Of a stretch of 5,168 nucleotides of DNA, positions 1 to 5,168 are shown in pieces. Origin of the DNA: Clostridia bacterium. Its GTDB lineage: Bacteria; Bacillota_A; Clostridia; Oscillospirales; CAG-272. Location of the stretch: NCBI GenBank assembly GCA_017395725.1, contig JAFQOB010000073.1:1-5168 (forward strand), given 5' to 3'. The position numbers were made by a program, and so were the translations under genes. The notes beneath the pieces were generated by a model. That model was not told the origin of the DNA, did not search any database, and saw only the letters and a program-made list of their open reading frames with translations. Position 1 is the stretch's first letter; each line of letters starts with the position of its first letter.

Positions 1-556
1 CGTTTGGCGAAAATATCTCAACGTTTTCAAGCTTTTCCAAGGGAAGCTCAAACTTTCTCAGACCTGCATCTATAAATACGGGAACTCTCCATCTCTGAGC
101 CATTCTCGTAGCGGCAACTATTTCTCTGTCGGGCAAGTCAAACTGCAAATATAATGCATCGGGATAACACAAAAATGCTCCCTCTACTTCATTTCTGCCA
201 AAATTGTCGTTTGCTCCCGGAAACACTATTGACCTTGTAGTTCCGTTTGCCTCGTTTATGGTAACAGAAAAACCTGTGGGTTCATCGTTATCACGTGTCA
301 TATATCTGGTATCAACTCTGCATCTGTCATAATAGTTTATGAGCGTTTCACCGTTTTCGTCATTACCGAGACGGGCGCAAAAAACCGAACCTACCGAATG
401 AGCCGCAAGCGTAACAGCCGCAAGTCCCCCTCTTCCGCCCGGAGCATAAGCATAATCCGTTCCCTTGGTGGTTCTTCCAACCATCGGAATCGAGCCTATA
501 TTCATAACCATTTTCATTTCGGCTTTGCCGAGTGTCAATACCGTTCTGTTAAACAA
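1..556 (-). CDS. PfkB/ribokinase-family carbohydrate kinase, C-terminus cut by window edge
   Basis: Seen: 185 codons read leftwards from a TTG at 556-554 and run off the window, so only the N-terminal ~185 of the usual ~300 residues are present. The start is set by an in-frame TAA two codons upstream (TAA AAT TTG) and by AGAGGG (plus-strand ccctct, 565-570) 8 nt before the TTG. The PfkB N-terminal signature appears as PGGRGG (residues 39-44) followed by an Ala-rich helix and ARLGNDENG (61-69), matching the ribokinase pattern GGKGAN...LG.DxxG. LQFDLP, then PVFIDAGLRKFELP and EIFSPN near the edge match the family's mid-domain strands and the Asn-containing motif before the substrate/ATP cleft. 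The ATP-binding and catalytic Asp region (GAGD) lies outside the window. Family members phosphorylate ribose, fructose phosphates, nucleosides or similar sugars; the substrate cannot be told here. It starts 30 nt after the purM stop on the same strand, so co-transcription with purM is likely (inferred). Confidence 0.85.
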   Translation of the reverse strand, partial: MFNRTVLTLGKAEMKMVMNIGSIPMVGRTTKGTDYAYAPGGRGGLAAVTLAAHSVGSVFCARLGNDENGETLINYYDRCRVDTRYMTRDNDEPTGFSVTINEANGTTRSIVFPGANDNFGRNEVEGAFLCYPDALYLQFDLPDREIVAATRMAQRWRVPVFIDAGLRKFELPLEKLENVEIFSPN

Positions 557-564
557 ATTTTATA

Positions 565-570
565 CCCTCT
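565..570 (-). promoter_or_regulatory. Ribosome binding site that fixes a TTG start for the sugar kinase
   Basis: Read on the minus strand, AGAGGG lies 8 nt upstream of the TTG at 556. No ATG or GTG competes nearby: the first in-frame ATG is residue 14 (AEMKM), which would remove the first strand of the PfkB fold and has no good Shine-Dalgarno sequence. The TTG start is therefore favoured. The site sits in the 30-nt gap between the purM stop codon and the kinase. Confidence 0.6.
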
Positions 571-586
571 TTAAAGTATATTTGAA

Positions 587-1753
587 TTAATAGTTAAATT
601 CTTTTCCGTTAGCTTTAATAGTAACCTTATTTTCGCCGCTGTCACTTGCTTCAACGCGTCCTACAATCTTAGCTTCAACGCCGTACTTCTCTGCTGTCTT
701 TATCATAAATTCAGCTTCAGCAGGGTCGCAGTACATTTCAAGTCTGTGTCCCATATTGAATACTCTGTACATTTCTGCGGGTGCAATATCGGAGTTCTCG
801 GCAATAGCCTTAAACAACGGAGGAACATCAAAGAGGTTATCTTTAATGTAGTGGAGTCCGATACCAAAATTCTTGCACTTAACTTGACCGCCGCCTGTGC
901 AGTGAACCATACCGTGAACGGCTTCACGCTTAGCATCAAGTATTTCTTTTACAATAGGAGCGTAGGTTCTTGTAGGAGAAAGAATCGCATCGCCTACGGT
1001 AACGTTGGTTCCGGGAAGAATATCGTTAAATTTGTAAGTACCGCAATAAACCTGCTCGTCGGGAATGGTGTTTGAATAAGTTTCGGGATACTTTGCCGCA
1101 TATTCGTGAGCAAGAAGCAAATGACGGGCAGCAGTAAGTCCGTTTGAACCCATACCCGCGTTGTATTTATCTTCGTATACAGCCTGTCCCGAAGATGCAA
1201 AGCCAACAATAACGTCGCCCGCCTTAATGTTATCGCAGTTGATAACCATATCTCTCTTCATTCTTACAAAGAAGGTAGAGTCAACGATAAGTGTGGAAAC
1301 AAGGTCGCCCACGTCTGCGGTCTCACCGCCGCACATAGTTATATCAACACCGTACTTACGCATCTTTTCAACGAATTCGGTGTAACCCTTTATAACCCCT
1401 GCAACAGCCTTACCGTCAACACGGTGAGCATTTCTGCCGATAGTGTTTGACATAATAAAGCCCTCGGTTGCACCTACGCAGAGAAGGTCGTCAAGGTTCA
1501 TTACCATAGAATCCTGTGCAATATCCGTAAAGGCTGTGTAATCGCCTGTTTCTTTAAACTTTATGTAAGCAAGAGAAGATTTCGTACCTGCACCGTCAGC
1601 GTGCATTGCCGCACAATAGTTTTCATCACCTGTAGGATCAGGCATAAGAGTACAGAACGCACCCTTAAAAACCCCCTTATCCAAAGACTTAACCGCATTG
1701 TGAACGTCTGTTTTTTCGGCAGATACGCCTCTTGACAAATATGCTTCGCTCAT
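587..1753 (-). CDS. purM: Phosphoribosylformylglycinamidine cyclo-ligase (AIR synthetase), long form
   Basis: PurM converts FGAM plus ATP to aminoimidazole ribonucleotide (AIR), the fifth step of cytosolic de novo purine synthesis; AIR also feeds thiamine synthesis. The protein is 388 aa, longer than the ~345 aa of E. coli-type PurM. Motifs in order: DGAGTK (53-58, canonical DGVGTK), MNLDDLLCVGA (85-95, canonical MCVNDILVCGA), GGETADVGD (142-150, canonical GGETAEMPG), ASSG and GMGSNGLT (186-207), then SPTRTYAP, HGMVHCTGGG and RVFNMGHR towards the C-terminus. The short N-terminus RGVSAEKTDVHNAV and the acidic GGETADVGD are features I associate with Bacteroidetes-like PurM (recollection, not searched). 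The ATG at 1753 is chosen over an ATG 10 codons upstream because GAGGA lies 7 nt before it and family members begin close to this point. Upstream is a near-consensus promoter; downstream the sugar kinase follows after 30 nt. Confidence 0.95.
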   Translation of the reverse strand: MSEAYLSRGVSAEKTDVHNAVKSLDKGVFKGAFCTLMPDPTGDENYCAAMHADGAGTKSSLAYIKFKETGDYTAFTDIAQDSMVMNLDDLLCVGATEGFIMSNTIGRNAHRVDGKAVAGVIKGYTEFVEKMRKYGVDITMCGGETADVGDLVSTLIVDSTFFVRMKRDMVINCDNIKAGDVIVGFASSGQAVYEDKYNAGMGSNGLTAARHLLLAHEYAAKYPETYSNTIPDEQVYCGTYKFNDILPGTNVTVGDAILSPTRTYAPIVKEILDAKREAVHGMVHCTGGGQVKCKNFGIGLHYIKDNLFDVPPLFKAIAENSDIAPAEMYRVFNMGHRLEMYCDPAEAEFMIKTAEKYGVEAKIVGRVEASDSGENKVTIKANGKEFNY

Positions 1754-1771
1754 ATATATATCCTCATTTCC

Positions 1772-1796
1772 GCCGTAAAACAAAACGCATTACGGC
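1772..1796 (-). promoter_or_regulatory. Hairpin in the purM leader
   Basis: A perfect 7-bp inverted repeat, GCCGTAA (1772-1778) and TTACGGC (1790-1796), with an 11-nt loop, lies in the inferred 5' leader between the purM promoter and its ribosome binding site. It has no T-tract beside it, so it is not an ordinary terminator. It may be an operator, an mRNA-stability hairpin or chance. I do not see a PurR box or a purine riboswitch core around it. Confidence 0.35.
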
Positions 1797-1818
1797 ATAA
1801 TAAACTATAATTAGATAT

Positions 1819-1847
1819 ATTATAACACATAAAATCCTTTCTTGCAA
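1819..1847 (-). promoter_or_regulatory. Sigma-A-type promoter for purM
   Basis: On the minus strand, TTGCAA (1847-1842) and a perfect TATAAT (1824-1819) are separated by exactly 17 nt. Transcription would start near 1812, giving a leader of about 58 nt before the purM ATG. This is one of the two best promoter matches in the window. Confidence 0.75.
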
Positions 1848-1940
1848 GTAATTTAATTATTTTTTTGTTGTAACCTTTTCACTCCCAAAGTTGTCTATAT
1901 TAAGTAGAGAGTATGAATAATCTTTTTGGATATTATTTAC

Positions 1941-1981
1941 AAAAAGTACTTTTTTGCAAACAATATTTGTGGTATTATTAA
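1941..1981 (+). promoter_or_regulatory. Probable promoter of the Cys-motif/radical SAM operon, with adjoining palindrome
   Basis: TTGCAA (1954-1959) and TATTAA (1976-1981) are spaced by 16 nt and point at the gene starting at 2018. A 14-bp perfect palindrome, AAAAAGTACTTTTT (1941-1954), touches the -35 box and could be an activator or repressor site. The region is very AT-rich, so other -10 registers (TATTAT, 1973-1978) are possible and the palindrome may be chance. Confidence 0.4.
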
Positions 1982-2017
1982 ATAAACCGCACAACCACAC
2001 CGAAAGGAGCAAGAAAT

Positions 2018-2683
2018 ATGACAGGCAAAAGCAAATGTAAAATATTAAAAGATATCCGTCGACAGATTGCAGAAAAGAACGGGATCGAGCTCGTTATAGA
2101 AGAGTGTAAATACAAAGGCGATTGCCTCGGAACTTGCCCTCGTTGTGAGGCAGAAGTGCGTTATCTTGAAAAAGAACTCGAAAAACGCAGAGCTTTAGGC
2201 AAAAAAGTTGCGGTTGCAGGACTTGTGGCAACGTTAACTGTTTCAACAACAAGCTGTAACCTCGTTGACAAAGTAATAGACACCTCAACAGCCGGTATAT
2301 TCCCAACAGAACAGTCAGCAGAGCTCGATGGAAATATTGCTCTCCCCGAAACAATGGTAACTATGGGAGAAATGATCCCACCGGAAACAACGGAAACCAC
2401 TGCAGAAACAAATGCACCGGAAACAGAATATACAAGCACCTTATCAGTATCCGCACTTCTTGGTACTACTCCCTATTTTATGTATATTCAAAACTACAGC
2501 AAAGACGAAATAATGACAGTCTGGAAGGAAAACTATCGTAACACCATAGGCAATACTTACTACTTTGCGTTTGTACACAATGGAAAAAACTATCTCATAA
2601 TCATTACATTCGACGAAAACGGCACACCGATACGAATAAAAGTTAACGTAGAACAGGAATTGTTAGGAGCCCCGCCCGTATGA
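2018..2683 (+). CDS. Cys-motif protein with internal membrane/lipobox-like segment, paired with radical SAM
   Basis: Function unknown; 221 aa. The ATG at 2018 is preceded by AAAGGAG (2003-2009) at 8 nt. Parts visible in order: residues 1-60 form a charged, probably cytoplasmic domain with C30-x5-C36-x3-C40-x2-C43 (ECKYKGDCLGTCPRCEAE), a likely zinc or Fe-S site, followed by a basic/acidic helix. Residues 62-80 (KK, then a hydrophobic run ending TTSC) resemble a signal-anchor or lipoprotein signal ending at C80, but lie internally. Residues ~90-140 form a Pro/Glu/Thr-rich low-complexity linker containing two similar segments, DGNIALPET and MGEMIPPET. Residues ~150-212 look like a small folded domain (YSKDEIMTVW..., then alternating strands ending FDENGTPIRIKV), resembling BamE/SmpA-like extracytoplasmic domains. 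The C-terminus is ELLGAPPV. The stop overlaps the start of the radical SAM gene (ATGA), implying translational coupling. From memory, Cys-motif N-termini of this type recur beside radical SAM genes in gut anaerobes; no search was run. Confidence 0.8.
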   Translation: MTGKSKCKILKDIRRQIAEKNGIELVIEECKYKGDCLGTCPRCEAEVRYLEKELEKRRALGKKVAVAGLVATLTVSTTSCNLVDKVIDTSTAGIFPTEQSAELDGNIALPETMVTMGEMIPPETTETTAETNAPETEYTSTLSVSALLGTTPYFMYIQNYSKDEIMTVWKENYRNTIGNTYYFAFVHNGKNYLIIITFDENGTPIRIKVNVEQELLGAPPV

Positions 2684-3336
2684 TAAAAGGAAGCGACATA
2701 ATTACAGCCCCCATCGTTACGTACGCAAGACACAGAATGCAGTCCGACGGACAGGGCGTGACGACACTTGTTTGTTTTCACGGTTGTCCTCTGCGTTGTA
2801 AAATGTGCCTGAATCCTTTTTCATTTTCGCCCGACACCAAGCGCAAAATGATGACTCCAAAAGAATTATACGACGAGGTTAAGATAGACGAATTATACTT
2901 TCTTGCGACAAACGGCGGAGTTACCTTCGGCGGCGGAGAACCGTTATTATATCCCGATTTTTTGACGGAATTTCGCAACATCTGCGGTAAAGAATGGCAT
3001 TTGTGTGCCGAGACGTCATTAAACGTTCCTTGGGAGAACGTTGAAAAAAGTATAAAAGCTATTGATTATTACATAATTGACTGCAAAGATACGAACCCGG
3101 AAATATACAAAAAATATACGAATAAAGATAACGGCATTATGCTCGACAATCTAAAAAAACTTGTTTCTTTGATTTCTCCCGAGAACATTCTTGTGAGAGT
3201 CCCCCTTATAACAAATTACAACACCGAACATGACAGAGAAAAATCAATAGAGGTTTTGTCTTCTATCGGCATTAAAAACTTCGATAAATTCGAATATATT
3301 GACCCCAAAAGCAGAAAGAATTTGTTTAAAGCCTAA
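2680..3336 (+). CDS. Radical SAM protein, pyruvate formate-lyase activase-like
   Basis: 218 aa. The start overlaps the preceding stop (ATGA, 2680-2683), with AGGAG (2665-2669) 10 nt upstream. The radical SAM cluster motif is C36-x3-C40-x2-C43 (HGCPLRCKMCLNP), binding a 4Fe-4S cluster and SAM. GGVTFGGGEPLLYP (79-92) matches the GGEP SAM-binding motif in the form typical of glycyl-radical-enzyme activases. AETSLN (110-115), YYIIDCKD (130-137) and RVPLITNYN (173-181) match the ETSG, D.KH and VP..PGYN strands of that family. There is no inserted two-cluster ferredoxin domain and no SPASM-like C-terminal Cys cluster, so this is a minimal barrel. Extra cysteines are C32, C102, C109 and C135. No glycyl radical enzyme is in the window; the likely partner or substrate is the Cys-motif protein encoded just upstream (inferred). 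Alternatives are activation of a distant glycyl radical enzyme or an anaerobic NrdG-like role. The stop codon lies 2 nt before the repeat block. Confidence 0.88.
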   Translation: MIKGSDIITAPIVTYARHRMQSDGQGVTTLVCFHGCPLRCKMCLNPFSFSPDTKRKMMTPKELYDEVKIDELYFLATNGGVTFGGGEPLLYPDFLTEFRNICGKEWHLCAETSLNVPWENVEKSIKAIDYYIIDCKDTNPEIYKKYTNKDNGIMLDNLKKLVSLISPENILVRVPLITNYNTEHDREKSIEVLSSIGIKNFDKFEYIDPKSRKNLFKA

Positions 3337-3338
3337 AA

Positions 3339-3444
3339 CCTCTATACAATTATTACATTTTCGCATAGACTGAGGAAGATTTCAAAGAGGCAGTCACTTT
3401 AGCAGTAATTATGAAAATAAACATTATCTTCAAATTAAACACCA
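3339..3444 (+). repeat. Tandem repeat copy A (~106 bp)
   Basis: First of three head-to-tail units that begin CCTCT and carry TATTACA, a CATAGAC/CACAGAC-like stretch and GGAAGATTTC about 40 nt in. The tail (ATTATG...CATTATCTTCAAAT) aligns with the tail of copy B. It begins 2 nt after the radical SAM stop codon and may include that gene's transcription end, but I see no classical hairpin-plus-T-tract. Confidence 0.6.
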
Positions 3445-3548
3445 CCTCTTTGCACATATTACAACTTAGCACAGACCAAGGAAGATTCCAAGGATAGAAG
3501 TAACTTTGATAGTGATTTTAAAAAACACTATCTACAAATAAAACATTA
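3445..3548 (+). repeat. Tandem repeat copy B (~104 bp)
   Basis: Second unit: CCTCTTTGCAC, then ATATTACAACTTAGC, then ACAGACCAAGGAAGATTCCAA. Its tail contains a hairpin, GATAGTG (3508-3514) with CACTATC (3526-3532). The head is nearly identical to the head of the long element at 3549, and the tail matches copy A (CAAATTAAACA against CAAATAAAACA). Confidence 0.65.
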
Positions 3549-3709
3549 CCTCTGTGTACTTATTACAACTTAGCACAAACCAAGGAAGATTCCAAAGGTG
3601 GAAAACCTTTGGTCGTTTTGGGGGCATGGGGTTCAAAGGGGTGGGGGAATCGAAACCCCCAGCCCCTTTGTGCCTTCTTTGCAATACTTTCTTGGCACCA
3701 AGAAAGTAT
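3549..3709 (+). repeat. Structured repeat element, left copy (161 bp)
   Basis: Begins with the same head as copies A and B (CCTCT...TATTACAACTTAGCAC.AACCAAGGAAGATTCCAA) and continues into three hairpins: CCAAAGGT/ACCTTTGG (3592-3599/3605-3612); CAAAGGGG-T-GGGGG/CCCCC-AG-CCCCTTTG around the loop AATCGAAA (3634-3670); and ATACTTTCTTGG/CCAAGAAAGTAT (3684-3695/3698-3709). The same three hairpins recur in inverted order and opposite orientation at 3820-3980. It could be a non-autonomous mobile element, a REP/BIME-like intergenic repeat or the gene of a structured RNA. No encoded protein is credible here. Confidence 0.75.
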
Positions 3710-3819
3710 GAAAAAAAGAAAAAAGATAGAGTTCTTTTAGAACAATATCTCTGTGATATATGTTTATATCTTCTAAACGAACGTGTCTATAATAATTACA
3801 CTCTTTTAGATTTCTCTTC
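3710..3819. other. AT-rich spacer between the two inverted elements
   Basis: 110 bp of low-GC DNA with two small hairpins, GTTCT/AGAAC (3731-3743) and GATATA/TATATC (3755-3770). It starts with an A-rich run. No promoter, RNA gene or reading frame is convincing here. Confidence 0.5.
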
Positions 3820-3980
3820 GTTACTTTCTTTCCGTAAAGAAAGTAACCAAAGAAGACGCAAGGGGAAGAAGCGTTTCGATTCGCTCCTTCCCCTTGACCC
3901 CATCCTCACGAAACGACCAAAGAGGAGACCTCGTTGGAAACTTCCTTGGTCTGTGCAGACTTTTTATAAATGCATAGAGG
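3820..3980 (-). repeat. Structured repeat element, right copy, inverted (161 bp)
   Basis: Read on the minus strand from 3980, it begins CCTCT, carries CACAGACCAAGGAAG.TTCCAA, and has the three hairpins of the left copy: CCAACGAGG/CCTCTTTGG (3937-3929/3925-3917); CAAGGGGAAGGAGCG/CGCTTCTTCCCCTTG around the identical loop AATCGAAA (3896-3882/3873-3859); and GTTACTTTCTTT/AAAGAAAGTAAC (3847-3836/3831-3820). TTTGGTCGTTT between hairpins 1 and 2 is also shared. Stem sequences differ from the left copy yet still pair. The lengths are equal (161 bp), counting from CCTCT to the end of hairpin 3. Confidence 0.75.
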
Positions 3981-4049
3981 TGGAGTTGTGTTCATTTGCT
4001 TGTGTTTGGGTAAAATACAAAAAAGTTAAAATATTTTTTGTGTAAAGTG

Positions 4050-4078
4050 TTGTAAAATAAAAAAATTTGTTTTATAAT
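4050..4078 (+). promoter_or_regulatory. Sigma-A-type promoter for typA
   Basis: TTGTAA (4050-4055) and a perfect TATAAT (4073-4078) are spaced by exactly 17 nt. Transcription would start near 4085, giving a leader of about 60 nt. The stretch 3981-4049 between the right repeat and this promoter is AT-rich and I see nothing else in it. Confidence 0.7.
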
Positions 4079-4146
4079 AATAAATTGTTGAAAATATGTT
4101 GTTGAAAAAAAAGAAAGATATTTGTTTTAAGGTAGGTACAGAATTA

Positions 4147-5168
4147 ATGAAAAGAGAAGACCTTCGTAATATTGCGATAATCGCTCACGTCGATCACGGT
4201 AAAACAACCCTCGTTGACGAAATGTTAAAGCAGGGCGGTGTATATCGCGAAAATCAGGCTACAGAAGAAAGAGTTATGGACAGCAACGCTATTGAAAAAG
4301 AGCGTGGCATTACAATTCTTGCAAAAAATACTGCTATACATTACAAAGACGTAAAAATCAACGTAATAGACACCCCCGGACACGCTGACTTCGGCGGTGA
4401 GGTTGAACGTATTCTTAAAATGGTTAACGGCGTTTTGCTTCTTGTTGACGCGGCAGAAGGTCCTATGCCTCAGACAAGATTCGTTCTCCAAAAGGCGTTG
4501 GAATTGAATCATAGAGTTATCGTTGTTGTTAACAAAATAGACAAGCCCGATGCACGTCTTGATGAGGTTGTTGACGAGGTTCTTGAGCTTCTTATCGACC
4601 TTAACGCTACAGACGAACAGCTCGACAGTCCTATGATATTCTGCTCGGGTAAAGCGGGCACTGCTTCGCTTTCTCCTTTCCAGCAGGGGACCGACCTTGT
4701 GCCTTTGTTTGAAACGATTCTTGAATATATGCCTGCTCCCGAGGGTGAGCCCGACGAGGACTTGCAGGTTCTTGTATCTTCTATTGACTACAACGAATAC
4801 GTAGGCAGAATCGGTATCGGTCGAGTAGAAAGAGGAACTATCAAACAAAACCAAGAAGTAATGATTTGTAACTATCATACAGAGGCGGCTCCTAAGAAAA
4901 CCAAGATAGTTTCTATGTATCAGTTTGACGGTCTCGGCAGAATGCCTGTTACTGAAGCTAAATGCGGCGATATTATTTGTTTCTCCGGTGCTGAAGATAT
5001 TACAATAGGTGATACTATCACATCTATCGAAAAACCTGAGCCTTTGCCTTTTGTTAAGATAAGTGAACCTACCCTTGAGATGACGTTCTCTGTAAACGAC
5101 AGTCCTATGGCGGGCAGAGAGGGTAAGTTCGTTACTTCACGTCAGCTCAGAGACAGACTTTACAAGGA
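4147..5168 (+). CDS. typA: Translational GTPase TypA/BipA, C-terminus cut by window edge
   Basis: A ribosome-associated GTPase of the EF-G-like superfamily, acting in the cytoplasm in ribosome assembly and stress or low-temperature growth. 340 codons are present of the usual ~605-615 aa. The GTPase motifs are complete: G1 AHVDHGKT (13-20), G2 within ERGITI (52-57), G3 DTPGH (75-79), G4 NKID (129-132) and a G5-like SGKAG (167-171). The beta-barrel domain 2 follows ([14 protein letters not shown]..., GDTI), then domain 3 begins ([33 protein letters not shown]), which is diagnostic of TypA rather than LepA or EF-G. The ATG at 4147 is chosen because TypA proteins start just before [12 protein letters not shown]. 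An in-frame ATG at 4096 would add 17 residues; it is disfavoured because it lies very close to the inferred transcription start and the extension is Lys-rich and family-atypical. The ribosome binding site is only moderate (TAGG ending 10 nt upstream). Its own promoter lies at 4050-4078. Confidence 0.95.

Follow-up and report, generated by a model that had tools for sequence, protein, structure and literature searches.

A candidate radical SAM maturation system in Clostridia pairing an activase-related enzyme with a Cys-domain partner that carries repeated glycine motifs

Results

An overlapping gene pair and its cysteine-rich partner protein

The stretch of DNA analysed here, called the window, comprises 5,168 nucleotides of a Clostridia bacterium of the order Oscillospirales (GenBank assembly GCA_017395725.1, contig JAFQOB010000073.1, positions 1 to 5,168) and holds two plus-strand genes that overlap by ATGA. 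Gene 1 (2018-2683), an open reading frame (ORF) of 221 amino acids, encodes a protein with a cysteine-rich N-terminal domain, referred to as the Cys domain; it is the probable substrate of the product of gene 2 (2680-3336, 218 amino acids), a radical S-adenosylmethionine (SAM) enzyme related to the glycyl-radical activases, as indicated by PF04055, by TIGR02494 below its cut-off, by the structure 3cb8 and by a tree. Plus-strand sequences that are probably ribosome-binding sites precede both, AAAGGAG at 2003-2009 for gene 1 and AGGAG at 2665-2669 for gene 2. An earlier sequence-only reading had described two genes overlapping by ATGA, a Cys motif, a hydrophobic segment and a low-complexity linker, and both the coordinates and the features prove right. 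It had also described a radical SAM protein with a GGVTFGGGEP motif and no glycyl radical enzyme nearby; the protein indeed matches PF04055, and inspection of ORFs and Pfam matches reveals no glycyl radical enzyme among the window genes. The promoter that the two genes were thought to share is not borne out. Promoter-like matches between 1780 and 3500 number 14, where 4.7 are expected (standard deviation 2.4), the sole plus-strand site 5' of gene 1 is weak (9/12, at 1936-1964), and nothing in the scan of this region convinces as a promoter or terminator of the two genes.

The Cys domain occupies residues 1 to 60 of protein 1 (2018-2197, plus strand) and contains C7 followed by C30-x5-C36-x3-C40-x2-C43. 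None of the five cysteines varies in either of two alignments, one of 36 and one of 86 proteins. AlphaFold places them in a Cys-rich loop with two helices around it; the ligand of the domain may be an Fe-S cluster or zinc. Next comes a hydrophobic export-like segment, residues 62-80 (2201-2257, plus strand), recognised by hydrophobicity and, for the lipobox-like C80 at its end, by pattern. A disordered low-complexity stretch (residues 68-137, predicted local distance difference test score, pLDDT, mostly below 50 in the AlphaFold model) leads to a small C-terminal alpha/beta domain (residues 143-213; 2444-2656, plus strand), whose predicted structure has a weak likeness to BamE. No Pfam or NCBIfam family matches protein 1 above cut-off, yet 1148 relatives are found at E ≤ 0.001, so the pair is more than a chance occurrence. 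Foldseek with the Cys protein returned nothing at E ≤ 0.001, a second run hardly testing the Cys domain, and when the Cys-domain alignment was searched as a profile against the PDB, the best hits were not significant (E 1.8 and 3.1).

The export-like segment is present in 130 of 130 non-redundant partners, 96 of them non-Bacteroidales and 34 Bacteroidales. A lipobox-like Cys is recognised by pattern in 89 of the 96 and in 23 of the 34, and in six Bacteroidales partners an Ala-x-Ala-like site takes its place. Some partners end in known folded domains: among ten larger or divergent proteins scanned, three match TonB_C, one of them under cut-off, and two match CarbopepD_reg_2.

A glycine motif recurs in the partner tails

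The tails of the partners share a short repeated motif centred on glycine. From 230 tails (two of 232 proteins lacked the anchor) a non-redundant set of 130 was kept, near-identical tails and those shorter than 30 residues being omitted. Motif discovery by expectation-maximisation, with no pattern supplied, was trained on 96 tails, which come from loci not labelled Bacteroidales, Bacteroidia or kin and from protein relatives mostly without a taxon label; the 34 Bacteroidales tails were held out. Backgrounds were obtained from 40 shuffles, or 500 for fusion-linked peptides and other architectures. The motif that emerges from the 96 tails is [EVT]-[LTIV]-[MDEA]-G-[DE]-[VIPM]-[AP]-[PY]-[PE], with glycine at a frequency of 0.99 and weak last positions; its core is [LTIV]-x-G-[DE]-[VIPM], frequently with Pro next. 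The training tails contain 336 sites at the loosest main threshold, against 28.6 +- 5.6 after shuffling, and sites occur in 95 of the 96 tails, two or more in 89. In the held-out Bacteroidales tails there are 67 sites against 9.3 +- 3.3, with at least one in 28 of 34. Site density per 1000 residues is 29.2 and 12.8 in the two sets of tails, compared with 1.35 in 569 other ORFs of the same loci. A plain regular-expression count gives 345 sites against 54.5 +- 7.2, with one to six per tail in 124 of 130 tails.

Protein 1 carries four plus-strand copies. Two are reported by the position-specific scoring matrix (PSSM) derived de novo: ELDGNIALP around Gly105 (2321-2347, score 13.4) and VTMGEMIPP around Gly117 (2357-2383, score 16.7). 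The other two were recognised by eye: TAGIFPTE around Gly93 (2288-2311), which the PSSM does not report at threshold 3, and the C-terminal ELLGAPPV around Gly217 (2657-2680), which lies too close to the end for a nine-residue matrix.

Six of seven viral loci also contain a Cys-domain match (the seventh, L087, has none), although in L086 the Cys gene is truncated by the contig end. The export segment is absent from three viral-contig Cys proteins tested, and the motif is kept in the two viral tails examined, those of L081 (LMGDVAPP) and L084 (LEGDVTPP), which together hold six sites against 0.9 +- 0.9 in shuffled sequences; L082 and L083 are near-copies of L084. Given that viral proteins without the export segment keep the motif, a role as a mere signal for export or lipidation does not account for it.

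The two parts occur together across genomes

A scan of species genomes with a Cys-domain alignment detected at least 529 places encoding the domain, of which the best 80 loci were kept. As the sequence-only reading had anticipated, Cys-domain homologues adjoin a radical SAM gene, in 72 of these 80 loci; the two genes lie on the same strand in all 72 and within 300 nucleotides of each other in 70. The Cys gene comes first in 55 loci and the enzyme in 17, the latter all from Bacteroidales, Bacteroidia or kin and with up to five Cys genes. For the eight loci without a neighbouring enzyme, the enzyme is found elsewhere in seven of the eight genomes, and in five of these seven it lies about 500 nucleotides or less from a second Cys gene. 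Typically a genome has one enzyme of this kind (16 of 18 genomes) and between one and five Cys proteins. Within the set, L020 and L021 are identical sequences from a single assembly, and the Cys gene of L002, split over two ORFs, was left unmended. A genome scan with a single enzyme sequence retrieved no locus. Carriers are, by their record titles, gut and rumen Clostridia and Bacteroidales, together with some viral contigs.

Co-occurrence was examined in sets of genomes, each including a centre genome picked for having the system; the names of classes and orders follow from record titles. In the class of the Oscillospiraceae genome G009 the same 12 of 391 genomes hold both parts and 379 hold neither, one of the two scans behind this comparison scoring at most seven candidates per genome. 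Eight of the 12 have separate neighbouring genes as in the window, two have the Cys domain at the end of an upstream protein, and two have the parts fused, which makes their co-occurrence automatic. In the order of G009 both parts are found in the same five of 147 genomes, and in the order of G018 in the same one of 196, the centre genome itself. The order of G014 (Bacteroidia) was covered by 198 genomes, with the Cys protein in three and the enzyme in four; in the fourth enzyme genome, G299, the Cys domain is fused onto the enzyme.

A human faecal 'phage' record (MT837469, locus L089, 766-3952), possibly bacterial DNA, has three tandem Cys genes and the enzyme; no glycine motif is obvious within the first 150 residues of each of its Cys proteins.

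The Cys domain moves between polypeptides

In G299 the Cys domain forms the C-terminus of the enzyme. The enzyme is present in six of nine genomes of the family of G299, and in all six it is fused to the Cys domain (281-315 amino acids, 301 at L111). At all six Bacteroidales-type fusions examined, a peptide of 61-92 amino acids without a Cys domain starts 12-33 nucleotides downstream; at L137 the fused enzyme spans 207-1097 and its peptide 1110-1325. A second fusion lineage, in the class of G009 (genomes G690 and G589, loci L138 and L139), forms a branch outside all the others and still has DGPGVR and SGGE; downstream of the fusion at L139 is a small lipoprotein-like ORF with LMGIP. Altogether the Cys domain sits on the enzyme itself in eight genomes of two lineages. 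In a third arrangement a protein of 333-378 amino acids with a C-terminal Cys domain is encoded upstream of the enzyme (G598/L140, G631/L141 and the viral locus L085). Since the Cys domain is found on the probable substrate, on another protein or on the enzyme, it works with the enzyme whichever polypeptide carries it. As a separate observation, a gene resembling a TonB-dependent receptor by eye (664-681 amino acids) follows fusion and peptide in five of the six Bacteroidales-type loci (L132 and L134-L137), and at the sixth, L133, the analysed stretch ends too early to show one.

These arrangements bear on whether the genes adjoin merely through inheritance of an operon, with no joint function. 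A short overlap is by itself no proof of interaction. However, gene order varies, unlinked copies persist and fusions have arisen in two lineages; the fusions refute chance neighbourhood in practice, and we give this explanation almost no weight.

The peptides beside the Bacteroidales-type fusions contain motif-like glycines. At the main threshold the six peptides hold four sites against 0.53 +- 0.74, a number reached in one of 500 shuffles, and at a lower threshold 11 sites against 1.09 +- 0.98, reached in none of 500. The six are mutually related, so this evidence counts as one event rather than six. It is pertinent to another account of the pair, in which the Cys protein is an Fe-S or zinc carrier, or an electron donor, for an enzyme acting elsewhere, and the motif is an unmodified binding or structural element. 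Five invariant cysteines would suit such a carrier, as would a Cys domain on the enzyme, which is what one expects of an accessory cluster domain, and folded tail domains such as TonB_C and CarbopepD_reg_2. Nevertheless, a small motif-bearing protein adjoins the fused enzyme in six of six Bacteroidales-type loci, so that motif and enzyme stay together without the Cys domain as a link, and the motif recurs in tails, including those of viral proteins that lack the export segment. A pure carrier is thus an unlikely role for the Cys protein. The distribution of the domain instead suggests that it is likely a portable adaptor and the motif tail the substrate.

The enzyme retains a glycine-peptide site but departs from activases

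Protein 2 matches PF04055 with E 6.2e-17. Its Pfam matches are Radical_SAM and Fer4_12 only; SPASM, twitch and the recognition element (RRE) of ribosomally synthesised and post-translationally modified peptides (RiPPs) are not among them. The model of the protein has a mean pLDDT of 91.9, and the nearest PDB entry is 3cb8, the pyruvate formate-lyase activating enzyme (PFL-AE) with a substrate peptide, at a TM-score of 0.81. In PFL-AE, Asp16 and Asn38 hold the loop of the target Gly734, according to an excerpt of PMC9326890. Alignment gives Asp23 (2746-2748) and Asn45 (2812-2814) as their plus-strand equivalents, neither of which varies in any of the 61 family rows or of the 13 activase-like ones. 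Equally invariant in both groups is D134-x-K136 (3079-3087, plus strand), and the radical SAM cluster motif C36-x3-C40-x2-C43 (2785-2808, plus strand) does not vary either. Other residues set the family apart. In the activase-like segment GGVTFGGGEP (2914-2943, plus strand), row comparison identifies G84, before GGE, as family-specific: it is present in 61 of 61 family rows, while the activase-like rows have Ser (10) or Thr (3). Activases are known by the motif DGxGxR. Its Arg, found in 13 of 13 activase-like rows, gives way to Thr in 59 of the 61 family rows, the sequence in the window being DGQGVT. The aligned residues thus suggest an enzyme that retained the glycine-peptide site of the activases and altered what surrounds it.

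Could the enzyme nonetheless be an ordinary glycyl-radical activase, whose target lies elsewhere in the genome and whose neighbour is unrelated? TIGR02494 is its best NCBIfam match and PFL-AE its best fold, and PF01228 proteins are present, one or more, in 21 of 42 genomes carrying the cassette. However, the score against TIGR02494 (134.9 bits) is below the curated cut-off of 174.35 and that against TIGR02493 (94.8 bits) misses 231.75, and no PF01228 protein is found in the other 21 of these draft genomes. To our knowledge, the PF01228 model does not cover anaerobic ribonucleotide reductase. In addition, a tree splits the Cys-linked enzymes from 13 activase-like proteins by a 100/98 branch, the bootstrap behind which had not settled (0.973). 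For the family it uses part of the 80 loci, those whose number does not equal 1 modulo 3, with viral and fusion sequences added; it omits two very long activase-like rows, L130 and L131, and an earlier tree that included them gave the same split at 86/93. Of the 13 activase-like proteins, all from cassette genomes, 12 lie 2.5 kb or less from a PF01228 match. The family therefore does not cluster with known activases, as the sequence-only reading of the enzyme as a maturase had implied. With scores, PF01228 gaps, loss of the Arg and the tree all disfavouring it, and with exact co-occurrence with the Cys domain besides, a plain activase is very improbable.

Surroundings of the pair and of its viral relatives

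The minus strand of the window carries genes for a PfkB-type kinase (2-556) and an AIR-synthase-like protein (587-1783), and on the plus strand a GTPase of EF-Tu/EF-G type, TypA-like in our reading, is encoded at 4096-5166. ORFs and Pfam matches in the window include no protease or transporter gene for release of a small peptide. The intergenic region 3338-3992 contains 51-nucleotide direct repeats spaced by about 105 nucleotides and inverted arms of 57-75 nucleotides, in which 3438-3494 pairs with 3931-3987 and 3607-3681 with 3848-3922. This element resembles a palindromic interspersed repeat; an Rfam scan of the window gave no match, the repeat element included.

On the viral contig L081 (IMG/VR 3300021399_005556) the region 5986-7375 encodes the enzyme, the Cys-domain protein and a lipoprotein-like ORF, which overlaps the Cys-domain gene and is built of repeated GYGYxVxYTxR units. 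The Cys proteins of L084 (4225-5430) and L082 (6666-7877) run on into a C-terminal part of about 260 residues, HIRAN-like by eye; for L084 the PHROGs matched are of unknown function. PHROGs had no match to the Cys proteins of the window and of L081, and a viral scan with A1 gave no confirmed match.

Discussion

We propose that the gene pair is a two-gene radical SAM maturation system, in which the enzyme modifies the glycine-motif tails of a dedicated partner, and we put the probability of this reading at about 0.7. It draws on the pairing of the genes, their genome-wide co-occurrence, the repeated motif, the shuffling of the Cys domain and the retained peptide-anchoring residues. Given an enzyme that keeps a glycine-peptide site and partners with motif tails, the simplest account is that the Cys domain guides the enzyme to the motif, which it modifies ahead of export. 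The suggestion of the sequence-only reading, a maturase with a dedicated substrate or adaptor, is supported, and gene 1 is best read as probably both. Both the repeated glycine motif and the Bacteroidales-type fusions lend support to its guess that the linker and C-terminal part would be what is modified.

The following course of events is conceivable. The Cys domain would dock the partner on the enzyme, or provide the enzyme with a metal or Fe-S site. The enzyme would generate a 5'-deoxyadenosyl radical, which would attack a residue in each [LTIV]-x-G-[DE]-[VIPM] motif of the tail. The likeliest site would be the near-invariant glycine, at its alpha carbon, or a residue directly beside it. 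Once modified, the partner would be exported by means of its signal-like segment, usually as a lipoprotein. The metal site of the Cys domain, the export and the lipidation are proposals of the same kind, as is any role for the modified protein.

Granted such a system, attack on the glycine alpha carbon is the target we favour, with close to an even chance, and a neighbouring side chain is our second choice. In the latter case an Asp or Glu, Leu or Met, or Pro side chain would be attacked to give a crosslink or an epimer, and glycine would serve only for the bend. The motif is indeed biased at positions -2, +1 and +2 as well (1.70, 1.07 and 1.39 bits). Radical SAM RiPP enzymes make C-C, C-O and thioether bonds (an excerpt of PMC8326336), and for TvgB the reported reaction is cyclisation of the valine within a repeated TVGG (PMC9062424). 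On the other hand, glycine alone is near-invariant, and the enzyme retains both residues that hold the glycine in PFL-AE. We regard the side-chain version as rather unlikely, bearing in mind that it is a variant of the proposed maturation system, so that the odds of the two overlap.

Several points weigh against a maturation system. The fusion-linked peptides match the PSSM only weakly, the three scored at threshold 7 having no site there, and no small peptide is seen beside the Clostridia fusion at L138. At the loosest main threshold six of the 34 Bacteroidales tails and one of the 96 others have no site, hence some partners are possibly not substrates, or their motif has drifted. The motif is not significant in the lipoprotein-like ORF of L139 (55 of 500 shuffles as good), nor in the proteins whose Cys domain is C-terminal (105, 341 and 455 of 500), and its role could instead be docking or structural. 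The search of G005 gave a Cys gene but no enzyme, and G003 and G004 carry the two at unlinked places. The family enzymes have lost the Arg of the activases, and the equivalents of Asp16 and Asn38 are common to activases too, so that their retention reflects ancestry as much as function. Finally, the modification, its glycine target and its product are inferred here from sequence.

How does the proposed system compare with known ones? With the glycyl-radical activases (PFL-AE, TIGR02493/TIGR02494, 3cb8) it shares the radical SAM fold, the Asp16 and Asn38 equivalents, D-x-K and GG-V-T-x-x-GGE. It differs in the Thr for Arg, the sub-cut-off score and the separate position in the tree, and in having a partner with a Cys domain and motif instead of a glycyl radical enzyme, in genomes half of which (21 of 42) lack PF01228. 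Radical SAM RiPP maturases, such as those of sactipeptides and ranthipeptides, likewise have a precursor-like gene adjoining, with a conserved N-terminal part and a variable tail in which a motif recurs. Unlike many of them, for SPASM, twitch or RRE are common on such maturases and not universal, our enzyme has none of the three among its Pfam matches, and the likely recognition module is the Cys domain of the partner. Each partner, moreover, is an entire protein of export type, and TonB_C or CarbopepD_reg_2 domains occur in some. Judged from its sequences, the pair would work like a radical SAM system for RiPP or protein maturation, whereas by score and by DGxGxR it falls outside the activases. 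A SCIFF-type precursor, as we take that term to be defined, was rejected: the Cys cluster lies here in the conserved N-terminal domain and not in the tail. Anaerobic sulfatase-maturating enzymes are radical SAM proteins that modify a short motif in proteins exported later; theirs is a sulfatase motif and formylglycine chemistry. TvgA/TvgB, as far as an excerpt of PMC9062424 describes them, also combine a radical SAM enzyme with a partner carrying a short repeated glycine motif, although motif (TVGG) and host differ, and TvgB belongs to a subfamily whose known capacity is as many as three [4Fe-4S] clusters (same excerpt). Searches of an open-licence library turned up no description of the pair; an earlier one may exist, key subscription papers having been outside the search.

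A broader and more tentative idea, to which we give somewhat less than even odds, is that an activase lineage has been turned into a general machine for tagging glycines. Acting at repeated LxG[DE] sites, it would produce alpha-carbon radicals, or crosslinks derived from them, and its targets would include viral proteins as well as surface lipoproteins and TonB-like proteins. Specificity would come from a portable Cys domain, placed N-terminally on the substrate, C-terminally on some other protein, or on the enzyme.

If the proposal is true, gut and rumen Clostridia, Bacteroidales and some viral contigs possess a protein-modification system whose partner belongs to no Pfam or NCBIfam family, and kin of the glycyl-radical activases act as peptide or protein maturases. 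The placement of the Cys domain on substrate or enzyme provides natural experiments that separate recognition from target, and the fused enzyme with its peptide of 61-92 amino acids makes a small pair that lends itself to direct testing. Should the attack fall on the glycine carbon, backbone glycine radical chemistry would be in use outside glycyl radical enzymes.

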